Part shown: piece by piece, positions 1,621 through 39,849 of the stretch
Layout: each line of letters begins with the position of its first letter
Position numbering within the stretch: the stretch's first letter is position 1
NCBI GenBank assembly: GCA_946401725.1
Contig: CAMIVE010000013.1
Span: 1 to 42,005 of the forward strand
DNA length: 42,005 bases
Direction: 5' to 3'
Origin: an uncultured Bacteroidales bacterium
GTDB taxonomy: Bacteria > Bacteroidota > Bacteroidia > Bacteroidales > P3
Notes under the pieces: model-generated
Told to the model about the DNA's origin: nothing
Databases searched by the model: none
What the model saw: the letters and a program-made list of their open reading frames with translations, nothing else
Program-made: the position numbers and the translations under genes

Positions 1621-1664
1621 AAAAAAGCCGTAAACTCCATGGTCCATGATGTTTACGGCTTTTG
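1621..1664. terminator. Bidirectional intrinsic terminator between WbqC and mnmG
   Basis: An A-tract and AAGCCGTAAAC pair with GTTTACGGCTTTT across a 16-nt loop. The stem has about 11 bp and is flanked by A residues on the left and T residues on the right, so it can stop transcription of the rightward WbqC gene and of the leftward mnmG gene. The loop carries a second ATGGTCCAT palindrome. Confidence 0.85.
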
Positions 1665-1678
1665 TTCCACGGGAAACA
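1663..1678. other. parS-like centromere site 1
   Basis: TGTTCCACGGGAAACA differs at one position from the broadly conserved ParB binding site TGTTnCACGTGAAACA. It is intergenic, squeezed between the terminator and the mnmG stop codon. Two more one-mismatch sites occur at 3603 and 16690. Confidence 0.7.
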
Positions 1679-1689
1679 TCCGGTAGGAT

Positions 1690-3573
1690 TCAGCAGCCCA
1701 TCACAATCAAAAGTACGGAAATATCCGCCGGTGAGACACCGCTGATTCGAGACGCCTGTCCGATTGTCTGGGGGCGCATCTTCGACAGTTTCTCCCGGGC
1801 TTCGAACGAAAGCGCCAAGATAGACCTAAAGTCGAGATCCTCTTTGATGGGAAAATCCTCGTATTTAAGAATCTTGTCCGCCACATCCTTTTCTTTCTCG
1901 ATATAGCGGCGATACTTCAACAACACTTCAGTCGACAGGACAACTTCCGAACGGATAGACTCTGGTATCGATGCAACAAAAGTCGCCAGCGAAGGCGACA
2001 ACTCCATTAGTAACGACATGTCAATCTCCGGACGCGCTATCAGACTGAACAGCTTCACCCGCTGCTGCAATGGAGCCGACTCATGACTGGCAAGACAGTC
2101 GTTAACCTCCGACGGCAAAACCGATTGCGTTTCGATAAACTCCGACAGGCGACCCACAGCGGCGTCCTTCTCCTCTACCCTGCGCATGCGTTCGTCGGAA
2201 GCCAATCCCAACGCATGGGACAACGGTGTCAAACGCGAGTCCGCGTTATCCTGTCGCAACAGGAGCCGGTATTCGGCACGCGAAGTAAACATCCGATAGG
2301 GTTCATCGACCCCTTTAGTGACCAGATCATCGATCAACACACCGATATAGGCCTGTGTACGACGCAGGACAAACGGCGCCTTCCCTTGCAGTTTCAACAC
2401 CGCATTGATACCTGCCATCAACCCTTGACAGGCGGCCTCCTCATATCCTGTAGTGCCATTGATTTGTCCGGCGAAATAGAGGTTTTCCACCTGTTTCGTC
2501 TCCAATGTATAGCGCAACTGGGTAGGAGGGAAATAATCATACTCGATGGCGTAGCCAGGCTTGAAGATCCGGGCCTTCTCAAATCCACGGATGGAATGCA
2601 GCGCCTCCAGTTGCACCTCCAGCGGCAAAGAGGAGGAAAAACCGTTCAGATAATAGGAATTCGTGCGAAGGCCTTCCGGCTCCACAAACAGTTGGTGACG
2701 ATCCTTGCCGGAGAAACGCTCAATCTTGTCCTCGATGGAAGGACAGTAACGGGGGCCCACCCCCTGGATACGTCCTGTAAATAACGGCGAGCGGTCGAAT
2801 CCTTTGCGGAGAATATCGTGCGTTTCGCTGTTGGTATAAGCCAGATAGCACGGCTTCTGCTCCCGGAGGGGATGGGTATCAGGACTGTAAGAGAATTTCT
2901 GAGGATGGCTATCCCCGGGTTGTTCCACAAGTGCATCGAACTGTATCGAACGGCCATCGATACGCACCGGCGTTCCCGTCTTCAGTTTCGACACCTCGAA
3001 GCCCTGCTCGCGCAACCGGTCGGAGAGACCCTTCGCCGGCAGTTCACCTATACGGCCTCCCGAGAAAACAGTCTCGCCAATATAGATACGACCATTCAAG
3101 AAAGTGCCATTAGTCAGGACGACCGCTCGTGCAGGGATCTCTATCTGCATGCGCGTGACGACACCCGTCACCATACCCTGGTCCGTCAGAAGGTCAACCA
3201 CCTCATCCTGCCACAACGTCAAACCATGGATATTTTCGAGCACCTGTCGCCAGTTGGACGAGAACAGCGCCTTATCGCATTGCGCACGAGGACTCCACAT
3301 GGCCGGACCTTTGGAGAGGTTCAACATGCGGAACTGTATCATGGAGCGGTCGGTGACAATTCCCGACCAGCCGCCCAAGGCATCGATCTCACGTACGATC
3401 TGTCCCTTGGCGACACCACCCATGGCAGGGTTGCACGACATCTGACAAATGGTATCCAGATTCTGTGTCACCAAAAGGGTTTTAGCTCCCATCCCTGCCG
3501 CTGCGGCGGCAGCCTCAGCACCCGCATGCCCTGCCCCCACCACAACGACATCGTATTGTTCGAACTTCATCAT
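1690..3573 (-). CDS. mnmG: tRNA uridine-5-carboxymethylaminomethyl modification enzyme MnmG (GidA)
   Basis: FAD-dependent enzyme that, with MnmE, installs the (carboxymethyl)aminomethyl group on wobble U34 of certain tRNAs. The product is 627 aa from ATG 3573 (MMKFEQYD); the family is normally 620-630. The frame remains open to a TTG 15 bases upstream, which I reject. Visible marks are the dinucleotide-binding VVGAGHAGAEAA near residues 11-22, the CQMSCNPAMGG motif near 50, GPRYCPSIEDK with the second conserved cysteine near 280, and the C-terminal helical domain for MnmE. It follows ybeY on the same strand with only a parS-like site between them, so it is probably co-transcribed. mnmG often lies near the replication origin in bacteria. 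Confidence 0.97.
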   Translation of the reverse strand: MMKFEQYDVVVVGAGHAGAEAAAAAAGMGAKTLLVTQNLDTICQMSCNPAMGGVAKGQIVREIDALGGWSGIVTDRSMIQFRMLNLSKGPAMWSPRAQCDKALFSSNWRQVLENIHGLTLWQDEVVDLLTDQGMVTGVVTRMQIEIPARAVVLTNGTFLNGRIYIGETVFSGGRIGELPAKGLSDRLREQGFEVSKLKTGTPVRIDGRSIQFDALVEQPGDSHPQKFSYSPDTHPLREQKPCYLAYTNSETHDILRKGFDRSPLFTGRIQGVGPRYCPSIEDKIERFSGKDRHQLFVEPEGLRTNSYYLNGFSSSLPLEVQLEALHSIRGFEKARIFKPGYAIEYDYFPPTQLRYTLETKQVENLYFAGQINGTTGYEEAACQGLMAGINAVLKLQGKAPFVLRRTQAYIGVLIDDLVTKGVDEPYRMFTSRAEYRLLLRQDNADSRLTPLSHALGLASDERMRRVEEKDAAVGRLSEFIETQSVLPSEVNDCLASHESAPLQQRVKLFSLIARPEIDMSLLMELSPSLATFVASIPESIRSEVVLSTEVLLKYRRYIEKEKDVADKILKYEDFPIKEDLDFRSILALSFEAREKLSKMRPQTIGQASRISGVSPADISVLLIVMGC

Positions 3574-3602
3574 ACAACTAATATTCAACCTAATAAACCA
3601 TC

Positions 3603-3618
3603 TGTTCCGCGTGAAACA
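3603..3618. other. parS-like centromere site 2
   Basis: TGTTCCGCGTGAAACA has one mismatch (A to G at position 7) from TGTTCCACGTGAAACA. It occupies most of the 46-bp gap between ybeY and mnmG, so it is not constrained by coding. Confidence 0.72.
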
Positions 3619-4806: not shown

Positions 4807-7800
4807 CTAAAACTTAAAGAAATAGTCGTTGACTTTTTGCTTGTAATAGTTCGACATGGAAGGCGGATTGGAGCGGAAAAGATCGATATTTTTTTCTTGC
4901 AGTTTCTTGTAACGTTCCAAATCGCCCTGCGAAGGCTGGTACATATCATGCGCCTCCTTGCTTTCTCTACGGTCTTCTTTTTCGCGCTGCAAATCAGCCT
5001 TTTCATGTTGCAGTAAACGGGTCAAAATCTGTTGTTGGCGTTGGATGGTCTGATGGGTGATGGTTTTATTGACCAGGTCGGTCTCCGTCTGTTCCATCTG
5101 ACGGATCATCTCGTCGATTTCACGTGCCAAGCGGGGATCGCCACCACTCTCTTCTTTCATCCGCTGTCCGTATTCCTGCATCATGCGACGGATCTGTTCC
5201 TGTCGGGCTGCCATCTTGGCCAGTTCCGAACTCATCGTGTTGTGTTCGCCCAACTTGGTGCGGCTACCCGGCTTGTTGCCTTGTTTTTCAAGCTCTTTCT
5301 TGAGCGATTCCATCTGTTTGTTCAGCTCTTCCTGCATCTGTCGCATGGACTTGGGCGATGGTTTTCCGCTGCCCGGATTGCTGCAGTTGCCCTTCATCTT
5401 CATCCCCTCCCGTTTGCAATTGCCATTCTTTTGCTTCTGCTGGTTCTGACGCATCTGGTTCTGCATCTGGTCGAGTGATTCGGCCAGTACCAGCGAGAGG
5501 TTGTTCAACGAAGTCATCGCATATTGCATCGGCTTGGAAGCCTGCGTATTGCGGTAATTACCATAGATAGACTGGTTATATTGCAACAGTCCCGAGAGCG
5601 ACTTGGCGATATTGGATTTGACCTCGGAAAGCTCTTTGTTGACCACCGAGGCAATAGCCATCTGACGTTTGGCCATAGCACGAAGCGAGTCCTCCACATT
5701 ACGGAAATCGTCCTTCAGGAGATTCTGTTTGGCGATTAACTGCTGATATTTCGGATCCTGCACACTCACCCGCGAGAGGTCGTTGATAAGCGTCTCCTGG
5801 TTGAAAGAGAGTTGCACTAGATTTTTCAGCAGTTGGCGCACCTGCTCTGCATCCTCAGCCAAGTCCTCCTGCTCCACATCCATCTGTGCACGGGCCAGCT
5901 CCTCCGACAGTTTTTGGAGGTCGTCGGCTGCCGATTTCTGGGATTTGGAAGCATCCTTTTTCTTGCCTTTCGAAAGTTTGCTTTCCGCCTCTTGCTGCTG
6001 TTGTTCGATACGGTTCATCAAGTCCTTGTCCAACTTGAAATCCGACGGTTGTTCCAGGTTCTTATAGTCTTTCTGTATCTGTTCTATCTCTTTCTCCAGC
6101 TGCTTGTATTGCTCCGAGAGCTGTTGCTGTTCCTGAAGGCTTTTCCGGCTGTCGTCCTGCTTGTTGGAGAGCTCTTCCTGTTTCTTTGCCAGCTCGTCGG
6201 CTTTGTTGACCGCCTGTTCCACTTTCTTCTCGAGTTCCAAGCGTTTCATCAGCTCAAGATTCTGGTCCAGCTGCTTCTCCAGGTCTTCGTTTTTCAGTTT
6301 CAGCTGTTCCAGTTCATCCTGCACTTTCTGCTTGTCCATCTCTTTCATCAGACGATCCATCTCCTTCATCATCTCCTTGATTTCGTCACTCATCACCTCG
6401 TCGAACAGACGGTCCAACTCCTTCTGTTTCTGGATGATCTCTTCGCTCTGGTCGCGGTATTTCTCCTCCAGGCGGTTGTTGTCCTTCATCTGTTCGCGCA
6501 TCTGCTGCATCTGTTTTTTCACCTCCTCCTGCCGCTTCTTCAACTCCTCCAGCTGCTTCTTGTCCTGCCACGACAGCTCTTTCTTGTCGACCAGTTTGCG
6601 GATCATTTCGTTGATTTCCTCCTGCAGTTTGCGGAGTTCCGATATCGACAGCTCGGCCTGATGCTGCGCATCCGACGAACCCTCACGAATCAACTGGTCT
6701 ATCTCTTCGTCGGTAGGGATCTGCACTTCGAAAGTCTGTGATTTCGTTGACTTCGAGCCGTTCACCCCGTCGTTGTCCCACACCTCGAAATAGTATTTGA
6801 CATGGTCGCCCGGGTTGAGTGTCAACTGCGACAAGTCTGTCGAATAGACAAACTCCTGCGACGCGTCGCGCGTGATGACGACCGGCGTACGCTGTGTCTC
6901 TTTCACCGTGGTGTCGGTGGCGTTGCTTTTCTCTACGACGAATTCCAGTTTCGAGAAGCCGTAGTCGTCCTTGATATGTCCTCGGAAGAAATAGCGGTCG
7001 GGCATCAGCGAGTCGCCCATCTGGATGACCGCAATCATCGGATATGCATCGTCGATGACGGAGATATTATAGGCAAGCGTGTCGGAGACCGTATGCCAGT
7101 TGTCAGCATAGAAACCGTATGAGAACGAGGTCATTGCACGGATGGCTGTCTTGCTGCGCCCGTTTTCGTTAGGCAGCAGCGAGAATGCTCTGGTATCCGT
7201 AAAGAAATGAAGTGTGTCGCAATCCTTGGTCATAAAGAGCCATTCAACCGTACTGCCTTTAGGTATCGTGATATCGCCCTCGTTGGAGAGGATCTCCGGC
7301 AACTTACCCGTATAGGCAGGGTAGGTGAGGAGGGTCTGGAAATGGACAATCGCCGGACGGGGAATCACCTCCAGTTCATAGACTTTGGAGGTGACGCCGA
7401 CTGCGGTGAACTGGAAGTTGTGCGATCGTTGCAGGTTCTTGAAGAGGTAGCTGTAGTGCAGGTTGTCGCGTTTCTGCATGCGATAGGCAACACCGTCAAC
7501 CAGTATGGAGACCTCGCTGGGGATCTCGTCGCCCTCAATGGCGACCTCCACCATGAAATCCTCCTGTTGAGAGGCTTCCAGCGACTTGTTTCCCAAGACA
7601 AACGAAAAAGGAGCCGGACGCTCGAAATAGGTAGAATGCTTCATGATGCGTTTGGAAGGCTCCGTGATAAACGATGGCGCCACAATCAGCACAACGATGA
7701 TAAACAATGCCGGTACGGCGACATACTTGACATATTTGAGGTTTTTCCGCAGGTCGATAGCGTTCAGAAACGGGATAGGGGAGAGCTGGTCCGTTTTCTG

Positions 7801-11947: not shown

Positions 11948-12784
11948 CTATAGATTTGTTAAAAAATTAAACAATTGGGGTGTCAGGCGGCTCGTTCCAA
12001 TTCTAAAAATTTGATTAGTAATATTTTTTACACCCAATATTTTTTCCATCAACAATGCGTAGCACCATGCTTCAGAGGGAGTTGAAATGCCTCCAGCGGC
12101 TTTGAAGCCTGCCGTCGAATTGTTTTTTTTCAAAAAATCACGCAAGGCAACCATCATGACAGTGGCCGACAAAGGTGTGGCCCCCACAGGAATCTTTCCT
12201 GTAGAAGTTTTGATGAAATCGGCTCCTGCCTGCAGTGCCAGCATGGAAGCACAGTAGATATTTTCCGTGGTCGACAACTCGCCCGTTTCCAGAATCACCT
12301 TCAGCGGCACCTTGCCACAAAGGGATTTGGCTGCCGCCACCTCATCGAAAAGATACTGGCTCTCGCCTTGGAGGAACATGCCCCTATTGATGACATAGTC
12401 CACCTCGTCGGCGCCCGAGTCGACAAGCCAGCGCACCTCTTCCATTTTCAGCTGCTGAGGCAGCTGTCCTGCAGGAAATCCTCCCGCTACAGCAGCCACA
12501 TGAATACCGCTGCCTTCCAACACTTTTTTTGCCTCTTCGACGAAACAGGGATAGACACATACCGCAGCCACGGAGGGTATCGATTTGTCATGCATCTGCT
12601 TTACCTTCTCGCAGAAAAGACGTATGGATTGCGGCGAGTCGGAACCGTTCAGCGAGGTATGGTCCAAGCAACCGAACAGGCTGGATGCAGCTGTTCGGGA
12701 GAGCGATTCCTTACGAAGCACTTGCTCCGTTTCGTCTATGATTTGTTGAAAATAGCTGTCAGAATAGTCAAATTCAATGGTCAT
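11948..12784 (-). CDS. deoC: Deoxyribose-phosphate aldolase
   Basis: A 278-aa class I aldolase that splits 2-deoxyribose 5-phosphate into glyceraldehyde 3-phosphate and acetaldehyde, in nucleoside catabolism. The Schiff-base lysine is Lys192 in DFIKTSTGK; the proton-relay lysine is in GFKAAGGI (near 227), and the phosphate-binding glycine-rich loop follows. The N-terminal LDHTSL block is also typical. Start MTIEFDYSDSYF at 12784 overlaps the stop of the LutB-like gene (ATGA), so it is translationally coupled as the last gene of the rpiB operon. The frame continues upstream for 89 codons but only as a shadow of the LutB-like gene. Confidence 0.95.
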   Translation of the reverse strand: MTIEFDYSDSYFQQIIDETEQVLRKESLSRTAASSLFGCLDHTSLNGSDSPQSIRLFCEKVKQMHDKSIPSVAAVCVYPCFVEEAKKVLEGSGIHVAAVAGGFPAGQLPQQLKMEEVRWLVDSGADEVDYVINRGMFLQGESQYLFDEVAAAKSLCGKVPLKVILETGELSTTENIYCASMLALQAGADFIKTSTGKIPVGATPLSATVMMVALRDFLKKNNSTAGFKAAGGISTPSEAWCYALLMEKILGVKNITNQIFRIGTSRLTPQLFNFLTNL

Positions 12785-13935
12785 TGGCTGTTCTTGAATT
12801 TTTGGTACATTTTGTTGAAGGTGTCGGTGTTGAAGGCCGGAAGTCGGCGGGTTTTCTTGAATTCCGAAGTAAAGTACTTCCCCATCATGACATTTTTCAC
12901 AAATTTGGAAGCATTCATTTTGGAACGACTCAGCAGGACTTTCCGCTGAGTGGCCAGCAAATGACGCTCTTTCTTTTCGACCTCGCCATTGACAAAAAGG
13001 ATATGACGTGAATCGACTATCATGTCGCGTATGGGAAGCGAAATAGGGCATACCTCTTCACAACGGCCACACAGCAAGCAGGCATAGATGATATGTTTGT
13101 ACGACTCCATCGATTCGAGATAGGGAAGCGTAATGTGGGCGATAGGACCTGTAAAGACATTGTTGTACGGTTCTTCTCCAATGGTTTGCAGCACAGGACA
13201 GACATCTTGGCAACGACCGCACTGCAGACAGGTGAGTGACTGACGGAGCTCTTTGTTGTTCAGCAGCTGCGTGCGCTGGTTGTCGATGATGAAAAGGTAG
13301 TTGTTACAATTCGAAGCACTCTTGAAAAAGACCATCTCCTGCTGGTTTCCACCGCTACGGTAGGTGGCCAGCTGCTGATAGACCTCCGCCCAATTGCTGT
13401 TGCACATGATACGGTCTATCGTGGTGAAAAAGATGTTTGTCTTGTCGTTCGTCAGCCGGGAAAAACTGTTGTTGCTCTGGTTAAGCAACAGCAACGCCCC
13501 TATATCGGCAAGCATCATATCCGCCACGAAAAACTGTACATCGCCATCCTCTCTCAACTCTATTTTCTCTTCACGAAGGAAATATTTGATACCCAACTCG
13601 CGAAAGATCGTCGATGCATTGACATTAGGCAATCTCACCGAACGTACTTTCTGTGATTTGAATATCTTTTTCAGACTGGCGAACACATCCTGGTAATCCG
13701 AAGCCCAAAAGACCGCGTTGTTCTTGTTTGAGAAATTCTTCTCAAACCGCGCCAGCTCCTCGTCGAGGTTTTCTATGGTGCGTTGCAGCATGGTACGGAA
13801 ACGACCGGCTGTCTCTTCCATGTCAAGAAACTGCGACGGTTTTCCCTGACTTGTCTTGAACAATCCAGGCCCTTCGTTTTTCTTGATGGCCTTTTCAGAG
13901 ATTTCCAAGAAGTTTGTATAATACTCGTTGTTCAT
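12781..13935 (-). CDS. LutB-like iron-sulfur protein (LUD domain plus two 4Fe-4S motifs)
   Basis: A 384-aa protein with an N-terminal LUD-type domain and two ferredoxin motifs: CLQCGRCQDVCP (about 239-250) and CLLCGRCEEVCP (about 289-300), each able to hold a 4Fe-4S cluster. This layout resembles LutB of the lactate-utilisation complex LutABC, but lutA and lutC are not adjacent. Here it sits between rpiB and deoC. Start MNNEYYTNF (13935) shares one base with the rpiB stop (TGATG); a further ATG four codons upstream (13947) is possible. Role and electron partner are unknown; an oxidoreductase of organic acids from sugar breakdown is only a guess. Confidence 0.82.
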   Translation of the reverse strand: MNNEYYTNFLEISEKAIKKNEGPGLFKTSQGKPSQFLDMEETAGRFRTMLQRTIENLDEELARFEKNFSNKNNAVFWASDYQDVFASLKKIFKSQKVRSVRLPNVNASTIFRELGIKYFLREEKIELREDGDVQFFVADMMLADIGALLLLNQSNNSFSRLTNDKTNIFFTTIDRIMCNSNWAEVYQQLATYRSGGNQQEMVFFKSASNCNNYLFIIDNQRTQLLNNKELRQSLTCLQCGRCQDVCPVLQTIGEEPYNNVFTGPIAHITLPYLESMESYKHIIYACLLCGRCEEVCPISLPIRDMIVDSRHILFVNGEVEKKERHLLATQRKVLLSRSKMNASKFVKNVMMGKYFTSEFKKTRRLPAFNTDTFNKMYQKFKNSQ

Positions 13936-14384
13936 CAATCCATACATTTGTTGATTTTCTCGACTCTGCGCTGATGACGGCCTCCTTCAAAAGGAGTGGA
14001 AAGGAAAATATCCACCAACTCCAATGCTTTCTCTACAGGAATAAATCGGGCAGGCAGTGCCATCATATTGGCATCATTGTGCTGACGTGCCAGTTGGGCT
14101 ATTTCTTCGTTCCAGCACAACGCACAACGCACGTTGGGGTATTTGTTCACTGTCATCTGTACGCCGTTCCCCGACCCACACATCACTATTCCGCGTGGAA
14201 AAAGACCCTTATTGATGGCAGACCCTATTTGGTGGGCATAGTCAGGATAATCTACACTCTCCGATGAATAAGTACCGAAATCCTTGACCTCATATCCCTT
14301 CGAAACGAGATACTCTTTGACTTTTTCTTTCAGTTCAAAACCTGCATGGTCTGAAGCAAGCGGTATGTTTTTACTGTTTATCAT
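13935..14384 (-). CDS. rpiB: Ribose-5-phosphate isomerase B
   Basis: A 149-aa RpiB/LacAB-family isomerase interconverting ribose 5-phosphate and ribulose 5-phosphate. Motifs: SDHAGFELK at residues 11-19, the catalytic cysteine in CGSGNGVQM (about 69-77), and the phosphate-binding RQHNDANM. The first gene of a tight minus-strand operon rpiB, LutB-like, deoC (overlaps of 1 and 4 bases), a combination that suits pentose and deoxyribose salvage. A -7 element is at 14414. It borders the AT-rich region that I propose as oriC. Confidence 0.95.
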   Translation of the reverse strand: MINSKNIPLASDHAGFELKEKVKEYLVSKGYEVKDFGTYSSESVDYPDYAHQIGSAINKGLFPRGIVMCGSGNGVQMTVNKYPNVRCALCWNEEIAQLARQHNDANMMALPARFIPVEKALELVDIFLSTPFEGGRHQRRVEKINKCMD

Positions 14385-14413
14385 TTCAGTTGTTGATTAT
14401 TTTTTCAATTTTG

Positions 14414-14421
14414 CAAAGTTA
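14414..14421 (-). promoter_or_regulatory. -7 element of the rpiB operon promoter
   Basis: TAACTTTG on the minus strand matches TAnnTTTG exactly, 30 bp before the rpiB ATG. A clear TTG at the -33 position is missing. Confidence 0.6.
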
Positions 14422-15073
14422 CAATAAAAAAACGGTACTATTTTAAGCGCTGAGAATATATTTTTAATAATTTATCACCATTTTATATAACAAATTGATT
14501 TATTATTATTTATATTTTAAAAATTTACAAAAATAACCGCGTGAATTTTACATTCGTGAAAAATTTTCACAAATCTAAAAAATCAGTTACAATCCTATTT
14601 TCAACAATTGTTATGCCAATTATTTATCAACACATTATTCGATTACATCAGTAAATTTTTTTGAGAAGACTATAAAAAATAAACAGTTACACGTTGAATT
14701 TCCGAGGAAACCATTGTCGATAAAATCTGATAAATTAAAACGTATTACAGTTTTGTTGAAAAAGTATGTTTTTCCAGAATTTTTCAGCCTTTTTCGAATA
14801 AAGAATTCAACGCTGAAAGGAATAAACATTTAACGGTTGATCTATCTTTCAACAGCAAGTTAATAAACATACAAATCAATGAAAGTGAATATTGAAGCAG
14901 GTGAAAAAACTGATAATAAAAAAGAATAAACAAATAGTTGGAGTAAACGAAACAGAGGATATGAACAAACTAACAGCCATAAAAAAGAAAAGAAAAAAAA
15001 CTTTTTAATTTCATTTCTCTTTTTTCTTTTTTTGAATGATTTCATGATTCCTTTTTTGAAGTTTGAAATTAAT

Positions 15074-15104
15074 TTGGTCATTCCGTTAAAAATCTGTACT
15101 TTTG
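15074..15104 (+). promoter_or_regulatory. Promoter for nadA
   Basis: TTG (15074-15076), 20-bp spacer, TACTTTTG (15097-15104). It lies inside the origin-like region and reads rightwards into nadA, giving a leader of about 65 nt. Confidence 0.8.
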
Positions 15105-15175
15105 CAAAATATAACTCTTTTTTTTTAATAGTGTAAACTATTAAAAATGAATTTTATGAAATTAAATAGCCAACT

Positions 15176-16123
15176 ATGACAGAGAATGAGTTGAAAAACG
15201 AAATCTTAAGATTGAAGAAAGAAAAGGATATCGTTATTCTAGGACATTATTATCAGATTGATGAGATACAGGAACTTTCAGATTATGTAGGCGACAGTTT
15301 GGCACTGGCCCAAGAGGCACAGCGTACCGATGCGCCGATTATTGTCTTCTGCGGTGTCCATTTCATGGCTGAGACTGCCAAGATATTAAACCCTACACGC
15401 AAGGTGCTTCTTCCCGACAGGAATGCCAGCTGCTCGCTGGCGGAATCCTGCAGTGGCCCCGACCTAAGGAAGTTCAAACAACAGCATCCCGACCATATAG
15501 TCGTCTCTTATGTCAATTGTTCAGCCGAAGTGAAGGCTGAGTCCGATCTGATTTGCACTTCCGGCAATGCGGAAAAACTTATCAATGCATTGCCTGTCGA
15601 CCAAAAGATCATTTTCGCACCTGACAAGAACTTGGGTTCTTATATCAACCGGCAAACCGGCAGAAACATGCTTTTGTGGGATGGTGTCTGCACGGTGCAT
15701 GACGCACTCGAGGCTGAGGGCATTTTGAAATTGAAACAGTCGAATCCCGATGCGCCTGTTGTGGCCCATCCTGAATGCAATGCCGCTGTATTGGCCGTGT
15801 CTGATTTTATCGGTTCCACCAAGGCGATGCTCAACTATATCCAGACGGCTCCTTACAAACGTTTTATTGTGGCTACCGAGTCGGGTATTCTGTATGAAAT
15901 GCGCAAAAACAATCCCGACAAGGAGTTTATTGCTGTCTCATCCAAAGAATCCTGTGCTTGTCTAGACTGTGCCTATATGAAGATGAATACTTTGGAGAAG
16001 TTGTATCTGTGCATGCGTGACGAGCAGCCCGAGATATTGCTTGATGCGGATCTTATTGAACGGGCAAGCAGACCTATCGTCCGTATGTTGGATATGTCGA
16101 AGCAATTGGGAATCATCAAATGA
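15176..16123 (+). CDS. nadA: Quinolinate synthase A
   Basis: A 315-aa 4Fe-4S enzyme that condenses iminoaspartate with dihydroxyacetone phosphate to quinolinate in NAD synthesis. Cluster ligands are visible as Cys86 (NASCSLAESC), Cys172 (WDGVCTVH) and a C-terminal cysteine in SCACLDCAYMKMNTL (260-265). The HYYQIDEIQELSDYVGDS block is the substrate-binding N-terminus. The ATG at 15176 follows the promoter at 15074. The next gene overlaps by four bases (ATGA). nadB and nadC are not in the window, but nadK is at 25467. Confidence 0.97.
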   Translation: MTENELKNEILRLKKEKDIVILGHYYQIDEIQELSDYVGDSLALAQEAQRTDAPIIVFCGVHFMAETAKILNPTRKVLLPDRNASCSLAESCSGPDLRKFKQQHPDHIVVSYVNCSAEVKAESDLICTSGNAEKLINALPVDQKIIFAPDKNLGSYINRQTGRNMLLWDGVCTVHDALEAEGILKLKQSNPDAPVVAHPECNAAVLAVSDFIGSTKAMLNYIQTAPYKRFIVATESGILYEMRKNNPDKEFIAVSSKESCACLDCAYMKMNTLEKLYLCMRDEQPEILLDADLIERASRPIVRMLDMSKQLGIIK

Positions 16124-16689: not shown

Positions 16690-16705
16690 TGTTTCCCGTG
16701 AAACA
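16690..16705. other. parS-like centromere site 3
   Basis: TGTTTCCCGTGAAACA has one mismatch (A to C at position 7) from the palindrome TGTTTCACGTGAAACA. It lies in the intergenic gap before the pseudouridine synthase gene, about 1.5 kb right of the candidate origin. Confidence 0.75.
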
Positions 16706-37264: not shown

Positions 37265-37424
37265 CGATTTAAAGTTTAAAAGTCGCTCCTGAAAAAACAG
37301 GTAATTCAATAATGCGCTTATTACAATTTATTTAGATTCATACTAAAAAACTAATCATCAACCAATTAACAGATGCAAGTTAAATACTTGATAAAAATTT
37401 GTTTTACGTAATTGAAAAAGTTCG
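37265..37424 (+). other. AT-rich intergenic stretch between ribBA and the coiled-coil/zapA operon
   Basis: Two hundred and sixty-one bases separate ribBA from the next start codon. The first 160 hold no coding signal or strong hairpin that I can see; the rest is the promoter and leader of the coiled-coil gene. Confidence 0.5.
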
Positions 37425-37432
37425 TAACTTTG
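37425..37432 (+). promoter_or_regulatory. -7 element of the coiled-coil/zapA/rny promoter
   Basis: TAACTTTG matches TAnnTTTG; the closest TTG (37399-37401) is 23 bp away. The leader of about 85 nt contains GGCCGTTGGCC and a repeated TTTGAAGCA (37493, 37510). Confidence 0.62.
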
Positions 37433-37525
37433 CATCCGCTAAAAAGTTAAATATTAAAGCAGAAAAAGAGGGGAGGCCGTTGGCCGAACATCTTTGAAGC
37501 AACAACACCTTTGAAGCAGCAAACC

Positions 37526-37819
37526 ATGTTCGATTTCGAGACCACGCTTAGCGGCATAGAGTTCAAAGTGAGACAGTTGATTGACGAGAACAGTCGACTG
37601 AAGACGGAGGCCTTGGAATTGACGGAAAAAATCGAAGAATTAACAGAAATTATTAACAGTCAAAAAAATACAATAAATAATTTAACAGAAGAAACCCAAA
37701 TAATAAAACTCAGGAATACGCTTGTGCAGAAGGGCGATTCAGCAGAAATAAAACTCAAGATCAATCAGTTGATCCGGAATATAGATAAAAGTCTGTTACT
37801 ATTGACGCATGTAGACTAA
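37526..37819 (+). CDS. Small coiled-coil protein, possibly ZapB-like
   Basis: A 97-aa protein almost wholly heptad-like (IDENSRLKTEALELTEKIEELTEIINSQKNTINNL), with no signal peptide. It lies 8 bases ahead of zapA. ZapB in E. coli is a small coiled-coil partner of ZapA at the divisome, so a functional analogue is plausible by position and shape, though I see no sequence proof. Start ATG 37526 (MFDFETTL); the frame is open to a TTG at 37511. Confidence 0.7.
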   Translation: MFDFETTLSGIEFKVRQLIDENSRLKTEALELTEKIEELTEIINSQKNTINNLTEETQIIKLRNTLVQKGDSAEIKLKINQLIRNIDKSLLLLTHVD

Positions 37820-37827
37820 CGAATCAG

Positions 37828-38133
37828 ATGGAAAACGTATCAGTAACTGTCAAAATATTGGAGCGAGACTACAGGCTCTCCATTGCTGCCAGTGAGGAGA
37901 CATTCCTCCGCAATGCAGCAGCGCTTATCGACGCCCAAGCTCGCATCTTCAAAAAACAATACGGTCACCGTGACAACCAAGACCTTCTGGCAATGGTGGC
38001 GCTCGCCCAGGTGACAGAACTGATGAAGTTGCAAGATAGTCTTAAATTCAAAGACACCGAGCTGATAGAGAAACTGACAGAGATTGACTCTCTTCTGGAG
38101 CATAACCTGCACCCGACCCGAAACAGTTTGTAA
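37828..38133 (+). CDS. zapA: Cell division protein ZapA
   Basis: A 101-aa cytosolic protein that promotes FtsZ filament bundling. The N-terminal beta hairpin (VSVTVKILERDYRLSI), the AALIDAQARIFKK helix and the C-terminal coiled coil with LAMVALAQVTELMKLQDSL fit the family. Second gene of its operon; the 3' end of the reading frame takes part in an inverted repeat (38126-38153) that leads into the structured spacer before rny. Confidence 0.88.
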   Translation: MENVSVTVKILERDYRLSIAASEETFLRNAAALIDAQARIFKKQYGHRDNQDLLAMVALAQVTELMKLQDSLKFKDTELIEKLTEIDSLLEHNLHPTRNSL

Positions 38134-38153
38134 ACTCAACACCATTTACAAAC
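38126..38153 (+). repeat. Inverted repeat spanning the zapA stop codon
   Basis: GTTTGTAAA (38126-38134) and TTTACAAAC (38145-38153) are a perfect 9-bp inverted repeat with a 10-nt loop. The stop codon lies in the left arm. No U-tract follows; it may be a processing or protecting hairpin at the boundary of the structured spacer. Confidence 0.65.
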
Positions 38154-38290
38154 CGAGTCTGCTCATGGGTGGGTAGGTTGTACGGCTGAGACACCCGGCG
38201 CTCAAATCCTATCTTGTCAGAGTTTACCATAACTCTCGGAGGGTGACGGTGCAGGTTTTTTGCTGAACATCCCGACAAGCTTTCCTACTC
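38154..38290 (+). ncRNA. Candidate structured RNA between zapA and rny (6S-like position)
   Basis: The spacer is GC-richer than other intergenic DNA here and folds into several compatible helices: GGTAGG (38172-38177)/CCTATC (38208-38213) with inner TGAG/CTCA; TTGTC (38214-38218)/GACAA (38274-38278) enclosing AGAGTT-TACCAT-AACTCT (38219-38236). An alternative, GTAGG (38173)/CCTAC (38284), could close the whole element. It has no open reading frame. In Proteobacteria 6S RNA lies beside zapA, so a 6S-type RNA is one candidate; a leader element controlling rny is another. No dedicated promoter was seen. Identity not established. Confidence 0.45.
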
Positions 38291-38307
38291 AAAATTTTTT
38301 AAAGCAA

Positions 38308-39849
<1,542 letters not shown>

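Follow-up and report, generated by a model that had tools for sequence, protein, structure and literature searches.

A putative chromosomal replication origin between rpiB and nadA in an uncultured Bacteroidales bacterium

Does the gap between the genes rpiB and nadA of an uncultured Bacteroidales bacterium, in a gene context without dnaA, represent its chromosomal origin of replication (oriC)? That was the proposal of a first-pass annotation of a 42,005-nucleotide stretch of contig C13, here called the window, in a draft genome (G000) of 1.61 Mb in 51 contigs that is ~60% complete. The nearest named relatives of this genome are uncultured Bacteroidales or Bacteroidetes, at least one of them from the rumen. 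The gap (14385..15175) is 791 bp long with a GC content of 0.236, and is flanked by rpiB on its left (ribose-5-phosphate isomerase B, 13935..14384, minus strand; NCBIfam NF004051, 6.1e-55) and nadA on its right (quinolinate synthase, 15176..16123, plus strand; NCBIfam NF006878, 9.2e-134), so its earlier description as an AT-rich region between these diverging genes was correct. That it is the largest gene-free stretch of the window, as was also stated, is not established, as the region 37310-38316 may be longer. That region of ~1 kb contains only ORFs of ≤102 aa, and the one ORF from it that was scanned had no Pfam match. A deoC-like ORF (11948-13051) and a LutB-like ORF (12781-13947) were also noted to overlap by 271 bp on the same strand, and the true start of the deoC-like ORF is probably further in. 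Based on comparisons of sequences from the window and its relatives, we consider it very probable that the rpiB-nadA gap is the oriC of this bacterium, where DnaA is predicted to act, with ParB predicted to act at nearby sites.

The gap contains an array of 9-mers resembling DnaA boxes. Four are exact matches to TTWTCRACA: TTTTCAACA at 14598..14606 (plus strand) and again at 14754..14762 (minus strand), TTATCAACA at 14624..14632 (plus strand), and TTATCGACA at 14715..14723 (minus strand). These four stand from the five that had been listed in the first-pass annotation; the fifth, CTTTCAACA at 14846..14854 (plus strand), is a weaker site that is one base off the form given for it. Only 0.16 matches to TTWTCRACA were expected in the gap and none of 3000 shuffles reached four. 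The looser form TTWTNNACA showed no significant excess in the window gap alone (4 vs 1.77, p 0.096). The 6-mer TTCAAC does occur five times within 254 bp, as had been reported (14600+, 14693-, 14755-, 14806+, and 14848+), and its claimed excess over base composition held as well (shuffled-gap mean 0.90, p ~0.0017). Across the 1.61-Mb draft genome there are 83 TTWTCAACA sites, and the window gap is the only spot having three inside 200 bp, based on a listing read by eye. The boxes are one base from TTWTCCACA and, as in DnaA-dependent oriC regions, they are clustered in an AT-rich intergenic region.

Comparison of the rpiB-nadA gap among relatives, a check that had been suggested for the 9-mers, showed that they are conserved. 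NadA could be identified in 30 of the 37 genomes of the same genus (the window's genome counted) and RpiB in 27; 26 genomes have both, and in 23 of these the genes are divergent neighbors ~0.4–1 kb apart. The 34 loci entered were 29 from the genus, window included, and five from named close relatives (L002–L006), with L005 and L105 being the same contig. Counts were pooled over 26 gaps, the 23 from the genus plus L002, L003, and L004. Seven loci with no rpiB upstream (L005, L091, L097, L103, L104, L105, and L107) were left out, as was L006, whose gap is 3126 bp; L006 and the genomes of L097, L103, and L107 were covered in the comparison of rearranged relatives described below. The pooled gaps contained 72 TTWTCAACA sites vs 1.9 expected, and the largest count in 100 shuffles was 6.

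The boxes also have a recurring arrangement, + (104–105 bp) - (28 bp) - (28/29 bp) +, that was present in full in L003, L004, L087, and L099 and in part elsewhere: the same-strand spacing of 28 was found in 8 gaps, the -/+ spacing of 28 or 29 in 12, and the +/- spacing of 104 or 105 in 6. The order in the window, + + - - +, has spacings unlike that pattern. The L109 gap had no exact box and the L002 gap had one only, while L005/L105, in which the contig is cut 482 bp before nadA, had none. Few boxes were present in other rpiB-nadA gaps: one in G115 (sister genus), one in G041, and none in G043. Order-wide, a search for close everted box pairs had matches in 45/149 genomes vs 16/149 for the reversed control (hand count). 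That search was rejected as an origin locator since it was too noisy and several matches were repeats.

An array situated between two divergent genes could instead serve as operators, bound by a transcription factor that controls nadA or rpiB, with no origin present. Promoter-like motifs of the form TAnnTTTG, which we take to be a promoter consensus, were read from the sequence at both genes, at 14413..14421 for rpiB (minus strand) and 15097..15105 for nadA (plus strand), and the k-mer TATCTTTGC of the rpiB site is present in 13 of the 26 gaps. We consider an operator very improbable, based in part on five relatives in which rpiB and nadA have been separated, by 48 kb in G004 and by 2.1–4.7 kb in G014, G028, G035:C34, and L006. 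In all five, boxes and a core element (described below) lie no more than ~0.6 kb from rpiB; G028, G035, and L006 also have single stray box-like sites at a greater distance. In G004 there was no box in the 2.1 kb before nadA, and because the array is kept beside rpiB with nadA 48 kb away, the module is not a nadA operator. An operator would also leave unexplained the switch in strand bias that is reported next (in G039, of another family, located where boxes cluster upstream of rpiB). Nor would a local operator account for the clustering of parS sites.

For an oriC reading, the strand composition of the flanking DNA is evidence independent of the boxes. A whole-chromosome GC-skew minimum is beyond what the 42-kb window and the draft relatives can reveal; the cumulative minimum of the window was at 6786, which is 8 kb to the left of the gap, and local GC skew was weak. 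Since GC skew was noisy at these contig sizes and opposite in G016, it was replaced by the composition of fourfold-degenerate third positions within genes, compared between leading and lagging genes with 2000 permutations, an approach that controls for gene direction. Ten contigs were analyzed, the window and nine from relatives, chosen mainly as long contigs; the long contigs G003:C1, G014:C1, and G023:C11 were outside this set. In eight of the ten, genes that would be leading relative to the gap were richer in T over A than lagging genes, by +0.15 to +0.34, a value reached by 0/2000 permutations in each, and in those eight the left and right sides each showed the bias alone. The exceptions were G016 (+0.18, p 0.09) and G012 (-0.02, no bias). 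The choice of T/A was not blind, as GC was the first choice and the T/A component was first noticed on the same ten contigs.

The best T/A switch points, measured from 300 bp before nadA, were at -1 kb in the window, G017, and G031, -3 kb in G010, +4 kb in G015, -8 kb in G002, +11 kb in G029, and +45 kb in G009. In the window, the gap ranked first of 29 candidate switch points. The fourfold GC component was weak (p<0.05 in one of the ten contigs, G012, p 0.013) and clearly opposite in G016, with a difference of -0.235. We noted that the GC skew of G016:C2 is itself strongly opposite to that of the other relatives, its cumulative maximum being 42 bp from the gap reference point.

Three contigs from other families, G039, G051, and G059, were tested later and are independent of the ten; they were picked as long contigs with box-like clusters, at least three box-like sites having been found in 6 of 20 stretches (own count). 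In G039 the best T/A switch coincided exactly with the box cluster that lies upstream of rpiB (rank 1/126) and the cumulative GC-skew minimum was 247 bp from the tested point, with the fourfold GC component absent (-0.007). G051 had a GC component of +0.173, which no permutation reached, and no T/A component (p 0.12); its best point was at -22 kb and its cumulative GC-skew minimum at +21 kb. G059 had both components (+0.120 and +0.091), with the best point at -32 kb.

A switch by itself fits a replication terminus as well as an origin, as strand asymmetry switches at both. We give the terminus almost no credence. This is because the sign found, a T-rich leading strand with a slight mean G excess, has the usual direction, coding length was leading-biased in 9/10 contigs, and DnaA-type boxes and parS are features of origins.

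The parS consensus, TGTTNCACGTGNAACA, is a 16-bp palindrome and a ParB site that marks origins. Exact copies were found in 29/36 relatives of the same genus and in 16/24 genomes from the order's other families, while the reversed sequence, used as a control, was found in none of 61 genomes. In 28 of those 29 relatives an exact site was on the contig that carries nadA/rpiB, and in 24 it was within 5 kb; in the other families, 9 of the 16 had one on that contig, 7 within 25 kb. Overall, 48 of 70 exact sites were on nadA/rpiB contigs and 22 on other contigs of these fragmented drafts.

The draft genome of the window had no exact TGTTNCACGTGNAACA. A relaxed pattern, written after the window sites had been seen, had three matches in that genome, all in the window, and its reversed control none. 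These parS-like sites are TGTTTCCCGTGAAACA (16690..16705, intergenic) and two that flank gidA/mnmG (1690..3588, minus strand; PF01134, 1.7e-160), TGTTCCGCGTGAAACA at its upstream edge (3603..3618) and TGTTCCACGGGAAACA at its downstream edge (1663..1678), and each has one mismatch to TGTTNCACGTGNAACA by hand count. Pairs ~2 kb apart and at a similar distance were observed in G003 (both exact) and G016 (one exact, one with a single mismatch). Weaker look-alikes with 2-3 mismatches occur in the window at 14187, 33802, and 34000. A ParB gene is present in the genome (G000:C3), and, with 16-bp palindromes near the putative origin, the arrangement resembles the known parS/ParB origin-segregation system; it is unlike that system in that all three window copies carry their one mismatch in the central CACGTG.

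The three window sites keep the outer arms, one base of the center being changed in each, and in the near relatives G033 and G035:C52 the parS sites (TGTTCCACGTGTAACA and TGTTACACGTGAAACA) deviate in the inner arms. ParB specificity may, judging from such sites, be drifting in this clade.

In many bacteria oriC adjoins dnaA, and were that so here, the gap would be a DnaA titration or regulatory site. We regard this as extremely unlikely, even though the region upstream of the bacterium's own dnaA is AT-rich and contains TTTTCAACA twice (C5:71519 and C5:71799), and a T/A switch placed at dnaA ranked 2/69 on that contig (G000:C5), one flank of which is only 9 kb. In G029:C11, with flanks of 62 and 55 kb, the bias runs unswitched past dnaA (+0.258 without a switch vs -0.035 with one). 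The model with no switch was also the larger in G000:C5 (0.303 vs 0.275) and G016:C5 (0.161 vs 0.105), where one flank is only 9 and 26 kb long, respectively, so that a switch at dnaA could still be accommodated. Among 30 Bacteroidales dnaA loci, the 186–375 bp upstream contained one TTWTCRACA in 9 and two in none, with no shared box array, and parS is located at nadA/rpiB. Autoregulation of dnaA as an independent proof of the box was likewise not found in those 30 upstream stretches.

Our preferred reading remains that oriC is the rpiB-nadA gap, and the first-pass statement that it is not next to dnaA was right, with dnaA on contig C5 and the gap on C13. Such a distance is ordinary for Bacteroidetes, as their oriC is commonly far from dnaA according to passages of PMC4755523. 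The inference of an oriC is supported by the conservation of the array and, independently of the boxes, by the asymmetry switch, the clustering of parS, and the retention of the array beside rpiB after rearrangement.

The DnaA of this genome has the box-binding domain IV (1.0e-27). In alignment, its recognition helix reads DHATV, compared to DHTTV in B. subtilis DnaA (8btg), and among the 30 Bacteroidales dnaA loci DHATV was found in 28, DHSTV in one (L182, G044), and DHTTV in one (L187, G046). It is a guess on our part that the change to DHATV pairs with the A, instead of C, at position 6 of the box.

Two genomes stood apart with regard to these proteins. In G012, no match to DnaA (PF08299, PF00308) or ParB_N and no exact parS was found, and there is no T/A strand bias; its rpiB-nadA gap (G012:C15, near 148.7–149.2 kb) keeps boxes and the core element. 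G018 likewise gave no match for dnaA. The missing matches probably reflect incomplete assembly, but the absent strand bias of G012 is odd.

What is new here, from comparison of the gap sequences, appears to be a conserved core element at the nadA end, TTATYAACMAAATTAACA, followed by an A/G tract. The element is an 18-mer that occurs in one direction near the nadA end of the gaps. It was first spotted by eye in L003, L086, L087, L101, L106, and L015, and then scored in gaps other than the window and the five consensus gaps with 17–18/18 (L085, L089, L099, L101, and L106). At least 15/18 positions matched in 13/20 gaps, vs none on the reverse strand and 0.1 expected from first-order Markov resampling, in a test that was not fully blind since L003, L086, and L087 were still in the set. 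The window copy, ATATGAACAAACTAACA (14959..14975, plus strand), was missed by the automatic scan and found by eye. It is a diverged copy, one base shorter than the consensus, and by-eye alignment showed that L083 and L002, the two nearest relatives of the window, share the shorter version.

In most gaps, a GC-richer step comes directly after the core element, and then an A/G-rich tract, L096 being an exception. In the 45 nt after it, purines average 68% and A 60%, vs 53% and 39% in whole gaps (25-gap mean). In the window, a GCC step and A/G-rich tract lie directly 3' of the element (14976..15000, plus strand) and represent a candidate unwinding region. By nearest-neighbor energies, no 60-mer in the window is less stable than the one at 14456..14515, on the rpiB side of the gap, and opening could occur at that place instead.

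This layout is similar to that of the basal unwinding system (BUS) of B. subtilis oriC, in which, according to passages of PMC8287927 and PMC10721633, box-like 9-mers in tandem and in one orientation precede a short step richer in GC and then the stretch to be opened. By the rule in PMC8287927, tandem co-oriented boxes are ≤3 bp apart; a BUS also has at least three DnaA-trios (3'-NAN-5') within 16 bp. The core consensus, read as TTATCAACC|AAATTAACA, would fit the tandem-box rule, its two 9-mers being by hand count 2 and 4 bases off TTATCCACA, the standard DnaA box of E. coli as given in a passage of PMC10225481. The window copy is more divergent still from TTATCCACA, being shorter than the consensus and having 3 mismatches in its first 9-mer. 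Also unlike the BUS, the tract after the core has its A/G in the strand that carries the boxes; being A-rich, it would match NAN trivially and on one strand only.

From features that can be read directly in the sequence, namely the array and its conservation, the asymmetry switch, the parS neighborhood, and the dnaA and parB genes, we infer how DnaA and ParB would bind, where the DNA would unwind, and how the origin would fire. DnaA, encoded elsewhere, would bind the TTWTCAACA-type array (14598-14762) and presumably spread toward the core element at 14959-14975. There it would open the adjacent A/T-rich tract, enabling the helicase to load. Two forks would then depart, one leftwards, co-directional with rpiB, and the other rightwards, co-directional with nadA, and ParB on the parS-like sites at 1663, 3603, and 16690 would segregate the new origins.

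More broadly, Bacteroidales may have a lineage-specific start module near rpiB/nadA, a variant of the BUS whose box code and tract would be distinct, in which a TTWTCAACA array would be read by the DHATV DnaA, a one-directional TTATYAACM-AAATTAACA would hand DnaA to the A/G tract, and parS would lie at recurring nearby places. This generalization is tentative and, on balance, we are inclined to doubt it.

Origins distant from dnaA have already been reported for Bacteroidetes. The oriC of Prevotella intermedia chromosome 1, in passages of PMC4755523, was similarly predicted away from dnaA, on the grounds that several DnaA boxes coincide with a GC-skew transition. Those passages give it by coordinates, without neighboring genes, and describe boxes sought with the E. 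coli motif and a skew plot of the complete genome, whereas here the evidence is a TTWTCAACA array together with fourfold-site strand bias and parS. In the parts consulted of a largely non-subscription literature, rpiB/nadA as origin neighbors, the core element, and the parS placement of this group were undescribed, and DoriC may well record the location. A literature search for the 9-mers as letters gave nothing relevant among the matches listed.

The layout found here makes the origin recognizable in close relatives. Based on box form, core element, parS, and the rpiB/nadA neighbors, oriC could be placed from sequence in drafts of uncultured Bacteroidales genomes from gut and rumen, in which dnaA would be a misleading marker of the origin. 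Such placement would aid growth estimates based on the slope of read depth, and the box and core element, now explicit, could be tested with purified Bacteroidales DnaA.
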